Shown here piece by piece: positions 27,541 through 36,971 of a stretch of DNA of 64,000 bases. This DNA comes from Archaeoglobus sp. Its GTDB lineage: Archaea; Halobacteriota; Archaeoglobi; Archaeoglobales; Archaeoglobaceae. The stretch spans positions 1 through 64,000 of the forward strand of contig NZ_JACDNT010000007.1 in the NCBI RefSeq assembly GCF_017656475.1. Reading direction: 5' to 3'. The stretch's first letter is position 1, and each line of letters starts with the position of its first letter. The notes below the pieces were generated by a model that saw only the letters and a program-made list of their open reading frames with translations, did no database searches and was not told the origin of the DNA. The translations under genes and the position numbers were made by a program.

Positions 27541-28794
27541 ATGAGCTCTCGCATTCCTGGATTTTACAAGCTCAGCGTCGAGGAGAGAATAAAGAAGGTT
27601 GCCGAGCTCGCAGGATTAAGCGATGAAGAGGTTAAAGCAGTTTTATCTCAGGGTTTGCCTCTTGATGTTGCTGACAGGATGATTGAAAATGTCATCGGCA
27701 CTTTCGAGCTGCCTCTTGGTATAGCCACAAACTTCCTGATTGATGGCAAGGATTACCTCATTCCGATGGCGATTGAAGAGCCAAGCGTTGTGGCTGCTGC
27801 GAGCAATGCAGCGAGGATGGCGAGGGAGAGTGGGGGGTTCAGGACTGACTACACCGGCTCCCTGATGATAGGACAGATTCAGGTTACGAAGCTTCCCAAC
27901 CCTCAAGCAGCTAGGTTTGAGGTTCTGAGCAACAAAGAGGAGATTATTGAGAAGGCAAACGAGTGCGACCCCATGCTGGTCAAGCTCGGTGGGGGTTGCA
28001 GGGATGTTGAGGCGAGAGTAATCGACACGATAATGGGCAAAATGCTCATCGTTCATCTGATAGTTGACGTTTTGGATGCGATGGGGGCCAATGCTGTAAA
28101 CACGATGTGTGAGAGTGTCGCGCCCTTCATTGAGAGAATTACGGGCGGGAAGGTTTATCTCAGAATAATCTCCAATCTTGCAAAATACAGGCTTGCAAGG
28201 GCGAAAGCGGTGTTTGACAAAGATGTTATTGGCGGTGAGGAGGTTGTTGAGGGGATAATGCTTGCCTACGCCTTTGCTGCTGTGGATCCATTCAGGTGTG
28301 CCACGCACAACAAGGGGATTATGAACGGCATCTCTGCACTGATGGTGGCTACTGGCAACGACTTCAGGGCTATTGAGGCTGGAGCGCACAGCTATGCTTC
28401 AATTGGTGGTTACAAACCCCTCACAACCTACGAGGTGGACAAGAAGGGGAACTTGGTTGGAACAATAGAGGTTCCGATGGCTGCAGGAGTGATAGGAGGG
28501 GCGACGAAGGTAAACCCGCTGGCAAAAATTTCGCTGAAGATTCTCGGAGTTGATACTGCAGAGGAGCTGGCAAGAGTTGCCGCAGCTCTAGGTTTAGCTC
28601 AGAACTTCGCTGCACTGAGGGCACTTGCTACGGAGGGCATACAGAGGGGGCATATGGAGCTGCATGCGAGAAATCTGGCAATAATGGCCGGTGCTGTTGG
28701 AGACGAGGTTGACAGAGTGGTTGAAATTATGGTTAGAGACAGAAAAATAAGGCTCGACTACGCAAAGGAGATTCTGGAAAAAATAAGGGGCTAG
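27541..28794 (+). CDS. hmgA: HMG-CoA reductase, class II (bacterial type)
   Basis: Makes mevalonate for isoprenoid lipids. 417 residues. Class II marks are ENVIGTFELPLGIATNF near residue 50, DAMGANAVNTMCE near 178, GVIGGATKVNPLAK near 315, and the C-terminal catalytic-His stretch EGIQRGHMELHARN. The arrangement is like the Pseudomonas mevalonii enzyme, not the class I enzyme of most archaea; Archaeoglobales are known for this replacement. Base composition does not stand out now. Its end overlaps the convergent ABC-2 gene by 4 bases. Confidence 0.96.
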   Translation: MSSRIPGFYKLSVEERIKKVAELAGLSDEEVKAVLSQGLPLDVADRMIENVIGTFELPLGIATNFLIDGKDYLIPMAIEEPSVVAAASNAARMARESGGFRTDYTGSLMIGQIQVTKLPNPQAARFEVLSNKEEIIEKANECDPMLVKLGGGCRDVEARVIDTIMGKMLIVHLIVDVLDAMGANAVNTMCESVAPFIERITGGKVYLRIISNLAKYRLARAKAVFDKDVIGGEEVVEGIMLAYAFAAVDPFRCATHNKGIMNGISALMVATGNDFRAIEAGAHSYASIGGYKPLTTYEVDKKGNLVGTIEVPMAAGVIGGATKVNPLAKISLKILGVDTAEELARVAAALGLAQNFAALRALATEGIQRGHMELHARNLAIMAGAVGDEVDRVVEIMVRDRKIRLDYAKEILEKIRG

Positions 28795-29795
28795 ATTAAA
28801 TTTTTATCTATTTTTACAATAAAAGGAGAAAATGCGAGGAGCGCAAAGGAGGCAGCAGAGAAAACTGCGGCGATGGTAAAGTCTATTTCAGCACCTGCAG
28901 CAGCTCTACCAACCATCAATGCGGGGCTTGCGTATTTTGTGACCATCAGTGGCAAAGAGCCGGCTGCGAGGATTGAGAAAAGGAGCTGAGCACTCTCTCT
29001 GTCCCTGAATTTCGCGGCCATGAGGTAGCCGAGCGAAACGAAAAAGGCAGTAATTGAGACTGATACTGCAAAGGCCAGCAATGGATTTGCCACATCCACT
29101 TTGTTGAGAGCTAGGAGGAGAAGCCACAGTGCGGTTAAGAGGGACGAGAATATCATGGGGGTTGCAACCTTGCTGACGGAAATCTTAAAAGGTGTAAGGG
29201 GCGTGGAGAGCAGCACCTCTATCGACCTGCTCTGTATCTCCTCACATACAGAGTCAATTGTCATTCCTGCAGCAACAACTGCTGTGGTGATGCTTAGGAG
29301 GGGGATAAGGATCAGATATATGAACTTGAAAACCGTTGAGGAGCCTGAGGGAATTTCTATCTCTCTGCCTCCTGAGTAAACCTTCAGCTCAAGATTCGGC
29401 ACACCATAAACGTTTCTGAGCTTCTCTTCATACTCAGTGAGCAGTTTTTTGACGTAACTCAGAATCTGAGCCGCTTTTATTTCATCATCTGGCACGATGA
29501 CGTCAACATACTTAATCCCGTCCACATCGGATACAATCAGCACGGCATCAACTTTTCCGCTTTTGAAAAGCTCCATAGCAGTTTCCTCATCGTAACAGCT
29601 TTCTATAAAGCACTCTCCAACGACGGCAACTTTCGAGCTACCATAAAAGCCGAGATAGTCCGGGTTATACAGCATGATCAGTCCGAAAGTCACAACTGAG
29701 GATATTCCTGCAACGAACACTATCAGAAAGACTATGCTGACAAAGGTTCTTTCCCTAAACATAAGCTTCATGTCCTTCTTTACTATTTCAAACAA
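28791..29795 (-). CDS. ABC-2 type membrane permease (NatB-like)
   Basis: 334 residues. A first membrane span near residues 18-40, an extracytoplasmic segment of about 120 residues, then five spans from residue 160 onwards with the ABC-2 pattern SRSIEVLLSTPLTPFKISVSK on the cytoplasmic side. Permeases of this kind work with a separate ATPase, but none is encoded beside it. It overlaps the upstream gene for a second ABC-2-like protein by 8 bases, so the two probably form a heterodimeric channel. Confidence 0.85.
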   Translation of the reverse strand: MFEIVKKDMKLMFRERTFVSIVFLIVFVAGISSVVTFGLIMLYNPDYLGFYGSSKVAVVGECFIESCYDEETAMELFKSGKVDAVLIVSDVDGIKYVDVIVPDDEIKAAQILSYVKKLLTEYEEKLRNVYGVPNLELKVYSGGREIEIPSGSSTVFKFIYLILIPLLSITTAVVAAGMTIDSVCEEIQSRSIEVLLSTPLTPFKISVSKVATPMIFSSLLTALWLLLLALNKVDVANPLLAFAVSVSITAFFVSLGYLMAAKFRDRESAQLLFSILAAGSLPLMVTKYASPALMVGRAAAGAEIDFTIAAVFSAASFALLAFSPFIVKIDKNLI

Positions 29796-31431
29796 GGAGC
29801 ATCACCACCGTATAGTCATATACAGCATGCAAGGCGATTGCTAATCCCAACGCCTTTCCGTATCCCTTTTTTGCCATAAGGGCTATGGTTATGGCCGTTG
29901 CAGTATGCAGAATTAACGGAAGGACGAGAAACTGACTGAGAAAGGCTATGCTGTATTCATGCAGGACATTAAATAGGATGAGAATCTTTTCTCCCAAGAA
30001 GAATCCGATAGCGGTAAAAATTCCTCTGCTTAGCGTTGGAGAGGAGAATATGATGATTCCTTTGATAAACTCCTCAACCACAGCAACGCAGATCAGCAAG
30101 GCCGGAACCATCAGATGCTGGGGAAGGATGAAAACCGCGAGTATTGCGAAGAGTTCGGCCATGAAGGCAAACGATATAGAAAGGAAGGCGAAAATGAAAG
30201 CTGCGCAATCGCTGGTTACACTTAGCCTTGAAATCTCAATAAGTTTCTGAAAAATTTCTTTGCCGTGGGAAATATCGGGATTCAGAGCTTTCATGCCGAA
30301 GTAAAACAGCATAAAAGCCATTATGAGGTAGTGGGCGAATGAAAGAGCCAGATCGCTAACAGCAAGCTCTTCTCCCTGAATGTAAGCAAGGAGGAGTGTA
30401 ATGGGTGAAATTTTGGATAGGGGAATAGCGGTTGAGAAAACTGCCGGAATGAAGGCGTAAATGGTTATCAGAAGTGAAACAACAAGCAGGAGAAAAGTTG
30501 CTTCTCTGTAGCTTCTCGAAATCATTACAACAAACGTCTGAGCTGAGAACAGCAGGAGAACGACAGGGATGGCGAACAAGAACGCCAGAAAACTGTTCAG
30601 ATAAATTGAGACGGCAAGGGCTGAAAGCAAGGATAACAGGAAGTAGGGAAGCATCTTTCCGAAAATGAGCTCTGGTCTGCTTATTGCTGATAGTAGCACT
30701 TCAAGCCTTCTAAGGAGCTTATCCTCGAGAAGGGAAGACGAGAATACCTGAACGGTGAAGTAGGACGGGATGACGAAAAGAAACGCTAAAACCATTCTGT
30801 CAACAAGACCCGGAGTTTTGATGTCCTCAGGAGGGACGTAAGTAGCGTTTGATTCGGGAGTTGCGGGCGTAGTTTCTTCAACAGCTGTTGTAGTTGTAGT
30901 GGTTTTGACTGCTGTGGTTGTGGTAACCGCGGTTGTTGTTTTTAAGGCAGAACCGCTGGACGACTTATTACCAACTGATTCGGACACCTTTCCGCCTGTC
31001 TCCGGCGGCTTTTCTTTTTCCTCAACCACTCTCTCTGGCGGCGTGATTCCAGAAGGTTCAAGGTAAACAACGCTCACCCTCACAGGATGTGCCATCTCCC
31101 CAAACTCCTTCTCTATCCTCTTCCTGTGCTCTTCTTTGAGGTATTTCAAAAGCTCATCCGCTGCCGCAAGACTTTTGTCACTCCGCTCTACAAACAGCTT
31201 GCCATCAAATAAAACAACGTCTGGACTGCTGGAAGTTGTGAGAGTTTTCAGGTTAACTTTGACATTGGTCGTGTAGATGCCTCTGTCCGAGTCAATTCCG
31301 GTTATGATGGAAGCATAACCCAGTGAAGCTGAAACCGCAACAGCGAGGATGATAAGGAGTAAGCTGCCACCCCCGTACCTCTTTCTTGACTTTTTAATCT
31401 CGAACTTAGCCACTTTAAGCACAGAATTCAT
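29788..31431 (-). CDS. ABC-2 permease-like protein fused to a PrsW/CPBP-like intramembrane protease domain
   Basis: 547 residues. Span at about 22-46; extracytoplasmic region to residue 208 that includes a Thr-rich linker (about 163-192, repeats of TTTAV); then an ABC-2-like membrane block (residues 209-380, RRLEVLLSAISRPELIFGK). The last 130 residues form another membrane block with VVEEFIKG (Glu453, Glu454, Lys457), GFFLGEK (Glu481), LILHTAT (His509) and LHAVYD (His535), resembling the EExxK...E...H...H pattern of PrsW-type proteases. The fusion is unusual. Followed by a second permease; no ATPase nearby. Confidence 0.72.
   Translation of the reverse strand: MNSVLKVAKFEIKKSRKRYGGGSLLLIILAVAVSASLGYASIITGIDSDRGIYTTNVKVNLKTLTTSSSPDVVLFDGKLFVERSDKSLAAADELLKYLKEEHRKRIEKEFGEMAHPVRVSVVYLEPSGITPPERVVEEKEKPPETGGKVSESVGNKSSSGSALKTTTAVTTTTAVKTTTTTTAVEETTPATPESNATYVPPEDIKTPGLVDRMVLAFLFVIPSYFTVQVFSSSLLEDKLLRRLEVLLSAISRPELIFGKMLPYFLLSLLSALAVSIYLNSFLAFLFAIPVVLLLFSAQTFVVMISRSYREATFLLLVVSLLITIYAFIPAVFSTAIPLSKISPITLLLAYIQGEELAVSDLALSFAHYLIMAFMLFYFGMKALNPDISHGKEIFQKLIEISRLSVTSDCAAFIFAFLSISFAFMAELFAILAVFILPQHLMVPALLICVAVVEEFIKGIIIFSSPTLSRGIFTAIGFFLGEKILILFNVLHEYSIAFLSQFLVLPLILHTATAITIALMAKKGYGKALGLAIALHAVYDYTVVMLLV
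30856..30939 (-). repeat. Thr-codon-rich repeat tract within the permease fusion
   Basis: Encodes a run of TTTAV-type repeats (residues about 165-192), predicted outside the membrane and probably glycosylated. On the plus strand it shows as repeated GTTGTAGTT-like units. Confidence 0.7.
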
Positions 31432-32717: not shown

Positions 32718-33029
32718 ATGGATATACAGACCAGAAAGTCCATACTCTGGGATGCTTTTGAAGAGCTGAAAACGAGATGGGGGGCAGACGAGAAGTTTCT
32801 TGAGAAAGCTGATGAGGAGGAGCTTACAGTGGACGGTCTGCCAGAAAGCAAAGTCAAGGACTTGCTGGATTTGAGGGAGAAGTATCAGCTCGACGAGCTT
32901 GAGTTTCTTTTCATCGTTGGAACGGCTGTAGGCCTCTATCAGGGGCAGAAGCAGGTGAAGGAAATCCTGCTGAGGAGAATGAGCGCCCTTAACGAGTTCG
33001 TCTCATCCCTCATCGGGAGAGAACTGTAA
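32718..33029 (+). CDS. small helical protein of unknown function
   Basis: 103 residues, charged and almost wholly helical (FEELKTRWGADEKFLEKADEEEL, then VKEILLRRMSALNEFVSSL). No motif recognised, no membrane segment. Its stop and the truA start overlap by one base (TAATG), so it is translated with truA and may be a conserved partner in this lineage. Confidence 0.75.
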   Translation: MDIQTRKSILWDAFEELKTRWGADEKFLEKADEEELTVDGLPESKVKDLLDLREKYQLDELEFLFIVGTAVGLYQGQKQVKEILLRRMSALNEFVSSLIGREL

Positions 33030-33823
33030 TGAAGTTTGCGTTCAAGATAGCATACTTCGGCGAGAACTTCCACGGAAGCCAGTTTCAGCCCGACCAGAGG
33101 ACAGTAGAGGGGGAGATAATCAACGCACTCAGAAGGCTTGGAGTTGAAAATCCAAGGCTGAGGAGTGCTGGAAGGACTGATGCCGGCGTTCATGCCTATG
33201 GGCAGGTAATCTCCTTTTATTCCGACGAAACAATCTTTCCAAGAATGCTAAACGCCGAGCTTCCAGAAGATATCACTGCATGGGCATGGGCAAAAGTTCC
33301 AGAGGACTTTGACCCCAGAAAGGCAAAGAGCAGAGTTTACACCTATGTTATGTATGGCTCCGACTACGACATCTCAGCGATGAGGAAGGCAGTTAAGGAG
33401 CTTATCGGCGTTCACGACTTCTCCAATTTTACGAAGAAGTTTGGAGAAGGGGAAAGCTGCGTAAGGGAGATCATAAGGGCGGACATAAGGGCGGACAGAG
33501 AGTTCATAATTTTTGAGATAGAGGGAAATGCCTTCACATGGAACATGGTCAGATGCATAGTGACAGCGATAATGGAAATCGGCAAGCAGCACAGAAGCAT
33601 AGAATGGTTTAGAGAGCTTTTGAACCCGGAAAAGCACAAGGAGAGGGTTGAGCCCGCTCCCTCATATGGATTGATTCTGAAGGACGTTAAGTACGATGAT
33701 TTGGAGTTTGAAGTTGACGACTACGCTTTGAAAACACTTCAGTCAAGAATAGAAAGCAGGATAGCACATCACGGAACGATTTTCAAGCTTTTCTCACTTT
33801 TCAGGCAAAGCGGAATTTCCTGA
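33029..33823 (+). CDS. truA: tRNA pseudouridine synthase A
   Basis: 264 residues. The catalytic Asp is in RSAGRTDAGVHAYGQV near residue 50; FHGSQFQPDQRTVEGE and the later FEIEGNAFTWNMVRCIV are also family marks. Forms pseudouridine in the tRNA anticodon arm. Near residue 150 the sequence contains a tandem IRADIRAD from a 12-base duplication. Its last 23 bases overlap the convergent FtsZ-like gene. Confidence 0.96.
   Translation: MKFAFKIAYFGENFHGSQFQPDQRTVEGEIINALRRLGVENPRLRSAGRTDAGVHAYGQVISFYSDETIFPRMLNAELPEDITAWAWAKVPEDFDPRKAKSRVYTYVMYGSDYDISAMRKAVKELIGVHDFSNFTKKFGEGESCVREIIRADIRADREFIIFEIEGNAFTWNMVRCIVTAIMEIGKQHRSIEWFRELLNPEKHKERVEPAPSYGLILKDVKYDDLEFEVDDYALKTLQSRIESRIAHHGTIFKLFSLFRQSGIS
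33473..33496 (+). repeat. 12-base tandem duplication in truA
   Basis: ATAAGGGCGGAC occurs twice in direct succession, giving IRADIRAD in the protein. In frame, so it does not disrupt the gene. Confidence 0.85.
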
Positions 33824-34733
33824 TTCCTGAGAATATCAGAACAGCGGAAACCTTTCTTGAACCGGGAATTGGATAGTCGCCGTACCTTACAACAATATCT
33901 CTATTTATGTTCTCTACCATCGCTATGGAGGAGAACAGGCCCTCCATCGTGAGCTCATCCGGCTTACCGGCGAAAAGGAGCAAAGCCGACTTGGCATCCT
34001 CAATGTCTCCGTTTATGCTTACATTCTGCAATGCCTCCTCCGTCAGCTCAAGCATTCTTTTCGTTCTTATCGCCTTCAGTTCACTGTTCCTTCTGAAAAG
34101 GATGTTCTTTATGTTAAATGGTATTTTCCTTTCCGCTATACCAGCGATGGCAAATCCGTCAGACTTTAAGGCATTGAACACATCAGATGTGTCAACAACA
34201 ACTTCTCCAGCCACCCTCTTTTTAAGGTCAATTTCACCGGCAAGAGCAACGAGGTTCATAACTTCCAGAATCTTTCTCTCTACACCAACCTCGCCCTCAA
34301 AAAGGATAAGAACATCCGACACTTCTCTTAAACTTCGAATTCGTTTCTTTATCTCTCCAATGCTTGAAGTGTCAAGCTGTGGAACTAACGCAAGTGAGAT
34401 TACAACATCTTCAGTAACCTTTCTGAGCTTTTTACAGAGTTCAAGAGACGTTATGTAGCCAAAGTCATCTTCCAAAGAAGTTAAGACGAGGCTTCCTTCA
34501 AATATTTCGTAGAGAGACGTAATCTGGTTTACAAAACCGCTGACGTCTCCTTTCAGACCATGGACGTAGTACTTCCTGTCGTCTCCCAACGAAACATTTC
34601 TCAAGTGCTCTTCATTGTTCAAAACTGCAAAACATTTAAACAGAGGAACTCGATTGACTTTCACACCTTTTTTGTGCATAATTTCCGCAATCTTGGCACC
34701 TCGCAGCCCTGATCCTATTGTTAGTAATCTCAT
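33801..34733 (-). CDS. FtsZ/tubulin-superfamily protein with degenerate GTP-binding motif
   Basis: 310 residues. IGSGLRGAKIAEIMHKKG (6-23) resembles the tubulin T1 loop and CFAVLNNEEHLRNV (34-47) the strand after it. VVVDTSDVFNALKSDGFAIAG (178-198) resembles the FtsZ T7 catalytic loop and helix, keeping Asp181 and Asp184 but not the Asn. DAKSALLLFAGKPDELTMEGLF (246-267), then VVRYGDYPIPGSRKVSAVLIFSGI, matches the FtsZ C-terminal domain. The signature GGGTGTG loop is missing: that place reads SLEDDFGYIT (86-95). It may not hydrolyse GTP. Likely cytoskeletal or regulatory; fold assignment is mine and unverified. Confidence 0.7.
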   Translation of the reverse strand: MRLLTIGSGLRGAKIAEIMHKKGVKVNRVPLFKCFAVLNNEEHLRNVSLGDDRKYYVHGLKGDVSGFVNQITSLYEIFEGSLVLTSLEDDFGYITSLELCKKLRKVTEDVVISLALVPQLDTSSIGEIKKRIRSLREVSDVLILFEGEVGVERKILEVMNLVALAGEIDLKKRVAGEVVVDTSDVFNALKSDGFAIAGIAERKIPFNIKNILFRRNSELKAIRTKRMLELTEEALQNVSINGDIEDAKSALLLFAGKPDELTMEGLFSSIAMVENINRDIVVRYGDYPIPGSRKVSAVLIFSGIRKFRFA

Positions 34734-34787: not shown

Positions 34788-35858
34788 TCAAACAAGACTC
34801 TCATACAACTCCACGAGCGAGTTCGCCACAACCTCCCAGCTGTACTTTTCTCTTACAACCCTTTTTCCCTTTTCTCCAATCAACCTTACCTCACCTTCAT
34901 CGCTTAGAAGCTCGTTTATTATTTCACTCAGCCTTATGTAGTCCCCAGGTGGAAAAACGAAGCCAGCCTCTCTTGCAACATCCCTAACCCCGGGAATGTC
35001 GGAGGCGGCAACGGGGGTTCCGCACGCCATAGCCTCGAGAAGAACTATTCCAAAAGCCTCCAGCCTCGATAAAGAGGGAAGAGCGAGGAGAGATGCTCTT
35101 GCAAGATACTCAATAACCTTTCTTCTTGGAAGGAACCCTGTAAACTCGGCGTTGACATTAAGCTTCCTTGCGAGTCTCTCAAGCGAGTTTCTCTCCTCTC
35201 CATCACCTATAATCACACACCTTGCCTCGACATCAACGTGCTTCATGGCCCTAAGCAAAACGTCAACTCCCTTGGTTGCGGCAAGCCTGCCGAGAAATAG
35301 CACCATAGGCTCTTTTTCCGCTTCGACTCCCTCAAACTCGCTCAGCTCTATGCCATTGGGAATTACATGGTAGTTTCTCCCTTTCAAAAGTCTTGAAGTT
35401 TCGGCGTAGCTTTTTGTTGTTGCGATAATCGCATCAGCCCTGTCAAGAGCTTCTGAGAGCATATCATCGCTCTTCTTAATTATCAACCTTGAAATAGCTC
35501 TGGGTATCGGAACCTTCCCGTACCTCTCAGGGATCTCAATGTCGCAGTGATAGGTTATGACGTGAGGTGATCTTTTGAGGGAACAGGAGAAGAAGGGCGG
35601 TGGTGTGTGCGAGTGGAATACATCACCATCTAAGTTTTCCAAAAACCTTCCAAGGAAAGGTGTAATTGGGGAGTAAGGAATAGGAATGCTGGGGATGTAT
35701 TTAACCTCAAATGGAAATTCAGCACTGCCGGATGCGCTGGATGTCACGACAACAACTTCAAAACCCCTTTTGTGAAGGTGGTGGGCAAGTCTTTCAACAT
35801 GAACCTCAACTCCTCCGACGTGGGGTGGAAAGTACGAGGTTAAAAGCACTACCCTCAT
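34788..35858 (-). CDS. GT4-type glycosyltransferase
   Basis: 356 residues. N-terminal SYFPPHVGGVEVHVERLAHHL acceptor-domain start, VLFLGRLAATKGVDVLLRA nucleotide-sugar domain, and the EAFGIVLLEAMACGTPVAAS signature with the paired Glu. Retaining transferase for lipid- or protein-linked sugars at the inner membrane face. Same strand as, and 54 bases upstream of, the FtsZ-like gene; a flippase-like gene is divergent. Confidence 0.94.
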   Translation of the reverse strand: MRVVLLTSYFPPHVGGVEVHVERLAHHLHKRGFEVVVVTSSASGSAEFPFEVKYIPSIPIPYSPITPFLGRFLENLDGDVFHSHTPPPFFSCSLKRSPHVITYHCDIEIPERYGKVPIPRAISRLIIKKSDDMLSEALDRADAIIATTKSYAETSRLLKGRNYHVIPNGIELSEFEGVEAEKEPMVLFLGRLAATKGVDVLLRAMKHVDVEARCVIIGDGEERNSLERLARKLNVNAEFTGFLPRRKVIEYLARASLLALPSLSRLEAFGIVLLEAMACGTPVAASDIPGVRDVAREAGFVFPPGDYIRLSEIINELLSDEGEVRLIGEKGKRVVREKYSWEVVANSLVELYESLV

Positions 35859-35922
35859 GTGCGATTCGGTGAGGTTGGATACAAATAAATTTAACCATCA
35901 AAGGAAAGAAATACGAAAATGG

Positions 35923-35930
35923 TTTATATA
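35923..35930 (+). promoter_or_regulatory. box A for the flippase-like gene
   Basis: TTTATATA centred about 34 bases before TTG 35961. It places the transcript start near 35952, after the TTG at 35937, supporting TTG 35961 as start. Confidence 0.6.
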
Positions 35931-35960
35931 CGTTAATTGTATGGAGCACCGGGGGGAAAA

Positions 35961-36971
35961 TTGAGTTCGACGCTAAGGGCAGCAGTGATGGGGATTCTTG
36001 TAAGCATCATTGTAACAGCAATAATATTCAAGTACACCGAGTCTGAGTTAACCTGGAGTGTCATTAAGAGGGCTAACTGGCTCTTGCTGTTTGCAGCCTT
36101 CCTTATGCAGGTGTCTTTCTGGCTTCTGTGGGCGTTCCGCATGAAACTCCTGTCCAATTATCTGGGCTATCGCATTTCTTTCCCCCACTCTCTTGAGATA
36201 ACCATGGCCAGCATGTTTACAGCCTCTATAACACCCTCCTCCGCTGGTGGAGAGCCTGTCAGAGTTAAGATGCTGTCAGACAGAGGTGTAGAAGTTGGTA
36301 CATCTGCCTTCATCGTCCTTGCTGAGAGAATCCTCGACTCAATGTACTTTTCAACAGCCCTGCCCGTCTTTCTGATTGCCACAGGTTTTTCGACAAGTTT
36401 TGGATTCAAAATAGCCATAATTTTCATTTCACTCCTCATCGTTTTTCTGTACGTTCTTTACAGGATATTCAGAAACGAGTCCAGCATCGACAAATTTGCA
36501 GAGCTTCTATACAAAGCTGTCCGGAAATTCAACGAAAAAAAAGCTGAGAAATACTCTTCAGCATTCTCAAGAGAGCTCAGGAGTTTTAGAGAAGCAACGA
36601 TAAAAATGCTTTCCGACTCCCTTTCCGGTATACTCATGCTCTACATCGTCACACTCGTCATGTGGAGTGCAAGCTTTACAATTCCTTCAATAATCCTCGT
36701 TGCCCTCGGTTACGATGCCTATTTCCTATACTCTTACGCAGCACAGCTAATAATAGTGATTGTCTCTCTTGTCCCGCTCACTCCCGGAAGCAGCGGAATT
36801 GCAGAGGTGAGCATGGCCTACCTCTACTCAAACTTCGTCCCTACAAACATACTCGGAGTTCTCGTAGGGCTGTGGAGATTAATAACCTACCACACAAACA
36901 TCTTTTTCGGGGCAATATTCGTCAACTACAGCCTGATAAAATCAAAATTTGTGAAGAATCAGCTCACGTAA
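35961..36971 (+). CDS. flippase-like integral membrane protein (UPF0104/LPG-synthase-TM family)
   Basis: 336 residues with about eight membrane spans. SITPSSAGGEPVRVKML near residue 85 and LVPLTPGSSGIAEVSMAYL near residue 275 are the paired glycine/proline motifs of the YbhN/AglD/MprF-TM family, whose members move lipid-linked sugars or other lipids. TTG start at 35961 behind a run of six G. Divergent from the GT4 gene; together they suggest an envelope glycan step. Confidence 0.87.
   Translation: MSSTLRAAVMGILVSIIVTAIIFKYTESELTWSVIKRANWLLLFAAFLMQVSFWLLWAFRMKLLSNYLGYRISFPHSLEITMASMFTASITPSSAGGEPVRVKMLSDRGVEVGTSAFIVLAERILDSMYFSTALPVFLIATGFSTSFGFKIAIIFISLLIVFLYVLYRIFRNESSIDKFAELLYKAVRKFNEKKAEKYSSAFSRELRSFREATIKMLSDSLSGILMLYIVTLVMWSASFTIPSIILVALGYDAYFLYSYAAQLIIVIVSLVPLTPGSSGIAEVSMAYLYSNFVPTNILGVLVGLWRLITYHTNIFFGAIFVNYSLIKSKFVKNQLT

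Follow-up and report, generated by a model that had tools for sequence, protein, structure and literature searches.

The window, the whole 64,000-nucleotide stretch of DNA analyzed here, belongs to a 2.04-Mb draft genome and carries, at positions 33801–34733 on the minus strand, an open reading frame of 310 amino acids (ATG at 34733, stop at 33801–33803). Read on the plus strand, this interval is broken by many stops. The gene and the parts of its product are listed below.

33801..34733, minus strand: CetZ-derived paralog without a nucleotide pocket (the D protein), 310 amino acids (open reading frame, Pfam CetZ_C, AF2 model, Foldseek, orthologs)
33816..34283, minus strand: CetZ_C domain (PF21011), residues 151–306 (Pfam search)
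33870..33890, minus strand: S9-S10 motif VRYGDYP, residues 282–288 (alignment, 36 orthologs)
34173..34208, minus strand: T7 loop, residues 176–187 GEVVVDTSDVFN, with invariant catalytic acids D181 and D184 (alignment, entropy)
34455..34478, minus strand: former T4 phosphate loop, residues 86–93 SLEDDFGY (canonical GLGGGTGS; alignment, 36 orthologs)
34692..34715, minus strand: eroded T1 loop, residues 7–14 GSGLRGAK (canonical GFGQAGGK; alignment)

Gene neighborhood

In the window genus, 54 bp separate the paralog from a glycosyltransferase gene upstream of it on the same strand, and its 3′ end overlaps that of truA tail to tail; in the window, truA (plus) and the paralog (minus) share 23 bases (33801–33823). 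Within 34788–36971, adjoining the paralog, a GT4 glycosyltransferase gene (minus) diverges from a gene for a TIGR00374 flippase-like membrane protein (plus). Directly upstream of truA, positions 32718–33029 (plus) encode a 103-amino-acid protein with no match in Pfam or NCBIfam, and its adjacency to truA is kept in six loci. Elsewhere in the window, an ABC-2 type permease is encoded beside a 547-amino-acid protein without a Pfam match (28791–31431, minus); this pair adjoins GAPDH and is kept within the genus.

No conserved operon partner of the paralog was found across the Archaeoglobaceae neighborhoods. Two settings are common, both tail to tail, with truA in the window genus and its relatives and with two M24 peptidase genes elsewhere. 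Tandem arrangement with cetZ is known from one genome (G037, L065:4990–7305) of the two-genome family f2, where the paralog directly precedes the canonical cetZ, in the same orientation and about 150 bp away.

Identity and fold

The Pfam model CetZ_C (PF21011; curated cut-off, 21.6 bits) matched the window protein at 76.4 bits (E = 2.4e-21) and was matched by 36 of 36 orthologs, and the FtsZ_C model (PF12327) gave a single match among the 36 members (E = 0.07). The GTPase model PF00091 had no match in the window protein and was matched by two of the 36 orthologs, presumably the two f2 proteins. Haloferax volcanii CetZ1 was found as a PDB sequence match at 1e-14 with the single sequence and at 2e-35 with the family profile. 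The AlphaFold (AF2) model (pLDDT, 88.8; pTM, 0.88) has a tubulin-type fold, for which the top solved structures in Foldseek were CetZ1 (4b46, 1.1e-19) and CetZ2 (4b45, 1.3e-18), followed by FtsZs; T7 is of low confidence in this model, with residues 170–173 below a pLDDT of 50. Identity to the CetZ of the same genome is 25% over the aligned part.

The protein is a member of the tubulin superfamily and sits with CetZ, not with FtsZ. Membership in FtsZ was rejected because the C-terminal domain is of the CetZ type (PF21011, not PF12327); the T7 motif reads VVDTSD (compare CetZ VVDSSE), not the NxDFxD of FtsZ. An earlier sequence-only reading had proposed a non-canonical tubulin/FtsZ protein, which profile searches and predicted structure both bear out, but the FtsZ-like C-terminal domain that it described belongs to CetZ instead.

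A lost nucleotide pocket and a retained T7 face

Orthologs (n = 36) were aligned against 31 canonical CetZs. T3 (KGHGVGTDN) is deleted and T4 (GLGGGTGSGG) is lost in all 36, none of which has the GGGTG[ST]G signature. Canonical positions 108 to 110 are mostly acidic in the orthologs (EDD, EDE, DDE, or similar), and, because a glycine phosphate loop has become mostly acidic, it should repel the triphosphate. The Archaeoglobaceae orthologs additionally lack T1 (QAGGK), T2, T5 (EEG), T6 (DNxxW), and the guanine-binding H7 Asn; the f2 orthologs retain T1 as GGAGCN or GGAGST, DND at T2, and the H7 Asn. The canonical C-terminal tail (DxxPLF or PLI) is missing in the orthologs. Two earlier observations can be placed here. 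The T1-like start was correctly recognized, since GSGLRGAK aligns with the CetZ T1 GFGQAGGK, the glycines being the main residues retained. The replacement of the GTP signature loop by SLEDDFGYI also stands, this segment aligning with GLGGGTGSG of the genome's own CetZ, but the loss is wider than T4, taking in T3, T2, T5, T6, and the H7 Asn.

T7 was kept. The loop GEVVVDTSDVFN of the window protein pairs with GEMVVDSSEVVN in the alignment and reads EVV[VI]DTSD in 36 of 36 orthologs, with the two acids of the CetZ type (VVD[ST]S[ED]). The two aspartates noted earlier in this T7-like loop are indeed its catalytic acids, D181 and D184; in H. volcanii CetZ1 the aligned residues are D215 and E218. 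T7 is the 12-residue stretch of lowest entropy (mean, 0.27 bits versus 1.55 bits for the whole protein) among orthologs whose mean identity is just 46%. Almost no variation is seen at the start of H10 or in the S9-S10 motif R.GD.P, in which R283, G285, D286, and P288 are invariant. By analogy with FtsZ and tubulin structures, T7, the H10 start, and S9-S10 are expected at the T7-side longitudinal interface.

The asymmetry extends over the whole chain, as residues fixed in canonical CetZs survive at 3 of 79 positions in residues 1 to 200 versus 15 of 43 in residues 201 to 345 (Fisher P = 8.6e-6). Ortholog entropy at T1, T2, T4, T5, T6, and H7 is 1.6 to 2.4 bits, and the former top face shows little conservation (T2, T5, T6, and H7, 2.0 to 2.4 bits); in the canonical CetZs of these families, every loop is fixed to much the same degree (0.00 to 0.19 bits). 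Some conserved residues, such as L31, F32, and E79, are specific to the orthologs.

Distribution and selection

The distribution rests on a search of 394 genomes of the phylum with the family profile, not on a pattern scan of genome contigs, which returned two MAG copies alone ("Archaeoglobi archaeon," 96 to 98% identical). The profile gave 53 orthologs at 369 to 488 bits, the next matches being canonical CetZs at no more than 150 bits. Orthologs were present in 51 of 55 sampled genomes of the window genome's own family (f1, presumed to be Archaeoglobaceae) and in both genomes of f2, the second family of the order; none was found in four f1 drafts (G005, G031, G304, and G317; completeness, 68 to 96%; contamination of G317, 9%). 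All 53 frames are open, and dN/dS between the window gene and three close relatives is 0.018 to 0.032 (unsaturated comparisons, the most distant of which has a dS of 1.4). A pseudogene was rejected on both counts, and the gene is a conserved CetZ-derived paralog under purifying selection across Archaeoglobales.

A canonical CetZ accompanied the paralog in every genome of the first survey except one draft (G036). Exactly two CetZ_C proteins were counted in G004 and most relatives, and complete genomes of the family also have two FtsZs. In G011 (C1:1063011–1063427; L104), a 401-amino-acid frame has a weak extra CetZ_C match (19.5 bits, below the cut-off) and is possibly another divergent tubulin-family paralog.

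Related group N and origin

Another non-canonical group of CetZs (N) was found in families f6, f13, f16, f23, f24, and f25 of the phylum, with 20 strong matches (at least 416 bits) in a 130-genome sample. By comparison with a published survey (PMC9856176), these are probably Methanomicrobiales. Examples are as follows.

L094:491–2263, group N
L095:726–1913, group N
L096:1647–3803, group N
L097:2240–4525, group N

T3 and GTGSG are absent in group N; GLGG, GGAG of T1, EG of T5, DN of T6, and the H7 Asn are retained, which suggests a milder stage of pocket loss than in group D. Most members carry a long, repeat-like C-terminal extension that ends in DDLFWI or a similar sequence, with frames of 390 to 990 amino acids.

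A tree of the C-terminal half placed D and N together opposite all canonical CetZs (support, 93/94; long branches are involved), and joining D with the canonical CetZs of Archaeoglobales was rejected by the AU test for that half (P = 0.025). Subject to those long branches, the same two results speak against a recent origin by duplication of the canonical CetZ of Archaeoglobales. The full-length tree, which also has long branches, resolved neither the base nor the relation of D and N; a common origin of the two groups is therefore likely and falls short of proof.

In the main text of Brown and Duggin (2023; PMC9856176), each Archaeoglobales genome is given two CetZs: a Halobacteria-like one, whose M-loop is long, and a deeper-branching one, whose M-loop is short. 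The deep-branching second CetZ is found in Archaeoglobales and Methanomicrobiales. This second CetZ is almost certainly the family of the window protein, because each genome has only one canonical CetZ and one protein of the window type, and the M-loop stretch is 26 to 34 residues in canonical CetZ versus 21 to 28 in the window family (Archaeoglobales). In that main text, both are treated as CetZs, and no statement of a missing nucleotide pocket was found there; published surveys thus appear to count the paralog as an ordinary second CetZ. Archaeal FtsZ paralogs without key motifs were noted in general by Makarova and Koonin (2010; PMC2875224), so this kind of protein was foreshadowed. In the literature searched, neither the restriction of conservation to one side nor its extent across the order appears to have been described.

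Proposed function

We tentatively infer, at somewhat under an even chance, a one-faced CetZ subunit that caps the GTP-bearing end of the canonical CetZ filament and promotes hydrolysis there. Subunits of this superfamily hold GTP between them, the nucleotide being bound by the top face of one and the attacking water positioned by the T7 acids of the next. In FtsZ, such a composite active site is established, the T7 acids of one subunit holding the precatalytic water at the nucleotide of its neighbor (PMC8936486). With its T7 face, the paralog would bind a canonical CetZ protofilament at the exposed end that bears GTP and so complete the active site. It would offer no nucleotide face to a further subunit, and would be monovalent along the filament because its T7 face is invariant and its nucleotide site absent. 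Since T7 would complete the site while nothing could bind beyond it, the end would be capped and the terminal GTP triggered, limiting filament length or promoting disassembly. That a regulator of this kind can exist is seen in ARC3, which binds chloroplast FtsZ, inhibits its assembly, and enhances its GTPase activity (PMC5855766).

The CetZ fold, the conservation of T7 above all other parts, the lost pocket, the co-presence of canonical CetZ, and the tandem in G037 would all fit a one-faced subunit. Against it stand the occurrence of that tandem in one genome, the lack of an Archaeoglobaceae operon, and the low confidence of T7 in the model; activation may also be weaker with D in place of E as the catalytic residue. 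Held more loosely still, at roughly one chance in three, is the fuller proposition of a functionally split subunit, with nucleotide binding discarded and T7 kept, that would serve as a dedicated CetZ end cap and GTPase activator throughout Archaeoglobales, with an intermediate in group N.

T7 and the C-terminal domain might instead be conserved for another partner. In one version, the protein would no longer have to do with filaments: its fold would serve for scaffolding or binding, and the T7 region would have an unrelated function. The absence of operon conservation within the family and the loss of the entire nucleotide face together with the conserved C-terminal tail motif would suit such reuse, but what was retained (T7, the H10 start, and S9-S10) is what a T7-side longitudinal interface, as placed above, would be expected to need, and we consider it unlikely. 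A regulatory role in division, by capping protofilaments of FtsZ1 or FtsZ2 rather than those of CetZ, is more doubtful again: the family's complete genomes do offer two FtsZs, and the Asp-Asp pair of T7 is like that of NxDFxD, but the T7 flanks, the C-terminal domain, and the fold matches are all CetZ-like, and the sole informative neighborhood pairs the paralog with cetZ, not ftsZ.

Self-polymerization without nucleotide, or nucleation in the manner of gamma-tubulin, seems quite improbable; one longitudinal face is intact and the ortholog-specific residues L31, F32, and E79 could make a new one, but the former top face is poorly conserved and gamma-tubulin-like nucleation would require that opposite, nucleotide-bearing face. 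Least credible, and by our estimate close to dismissal, is the reading, based on the earlier suggestion, that GTP is bound without being hydrolyzed and that the protein copolymerizes, for which the partly retained T1 glycines, the T1, partial T2, and H7 Asn of both f2 orthologs, and the two PF00091 matches speak, against T3 deleted and T4 mostly acidic in 36 of 36 and T5, T6, and the H7 Asn lost in Archaeoglobaceae. What the alignment points to is nearly the opposite of binding without hydrolysis, all pocket loops being gone and the T7 face invariant; the role of assembly partner proposed alongside it is plausible.

Significance and comparison with known systems

Among the tubulin-like families of the archaeal cytoskeleton, CetZ is a main one. 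A conserved natural paralog with the T7 half of the GTPase site alone is a built-in separation-of-function mutant, and allows a direct test of which end of the filament is dynamic and what regulates it. Counts of "CetZ GTPases" in Archaeoglobales and group N take in proteins that are probably unable to bind GTP, and this affects trees and functional inferences.

The paralog shares with canonical CetZ (CetZ1 and CetZ2 of H. volcanii) the fold, the C-terminal domain, the type of T7, and the S9-S10 RxGDYP, but, unlike it, has no PF00091 match, GGGTGSG, T3, or PLF/PLI tail. By functional analogy, it is likened to ARC3, an FtsZ-related plant chloroplast division regulator that carries an FtsZ-like domain. 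ARC3 differs in being multidomain with a MORN region, in having FtsZ as its target, and in its independent origin. The FtsZ assembly inhibitors MciZ and SulA, which are unrelated small proteins, obstruct a tubulin-family subunit on one of its longitudinal faces, as the paralog may do; they bind the T7 side, whereas the paralog would present its own. Gamma-tubulin is a paralog specialized for a filament end, as the window protein may be, but it keeps a nucleotide pocket and nucleates.
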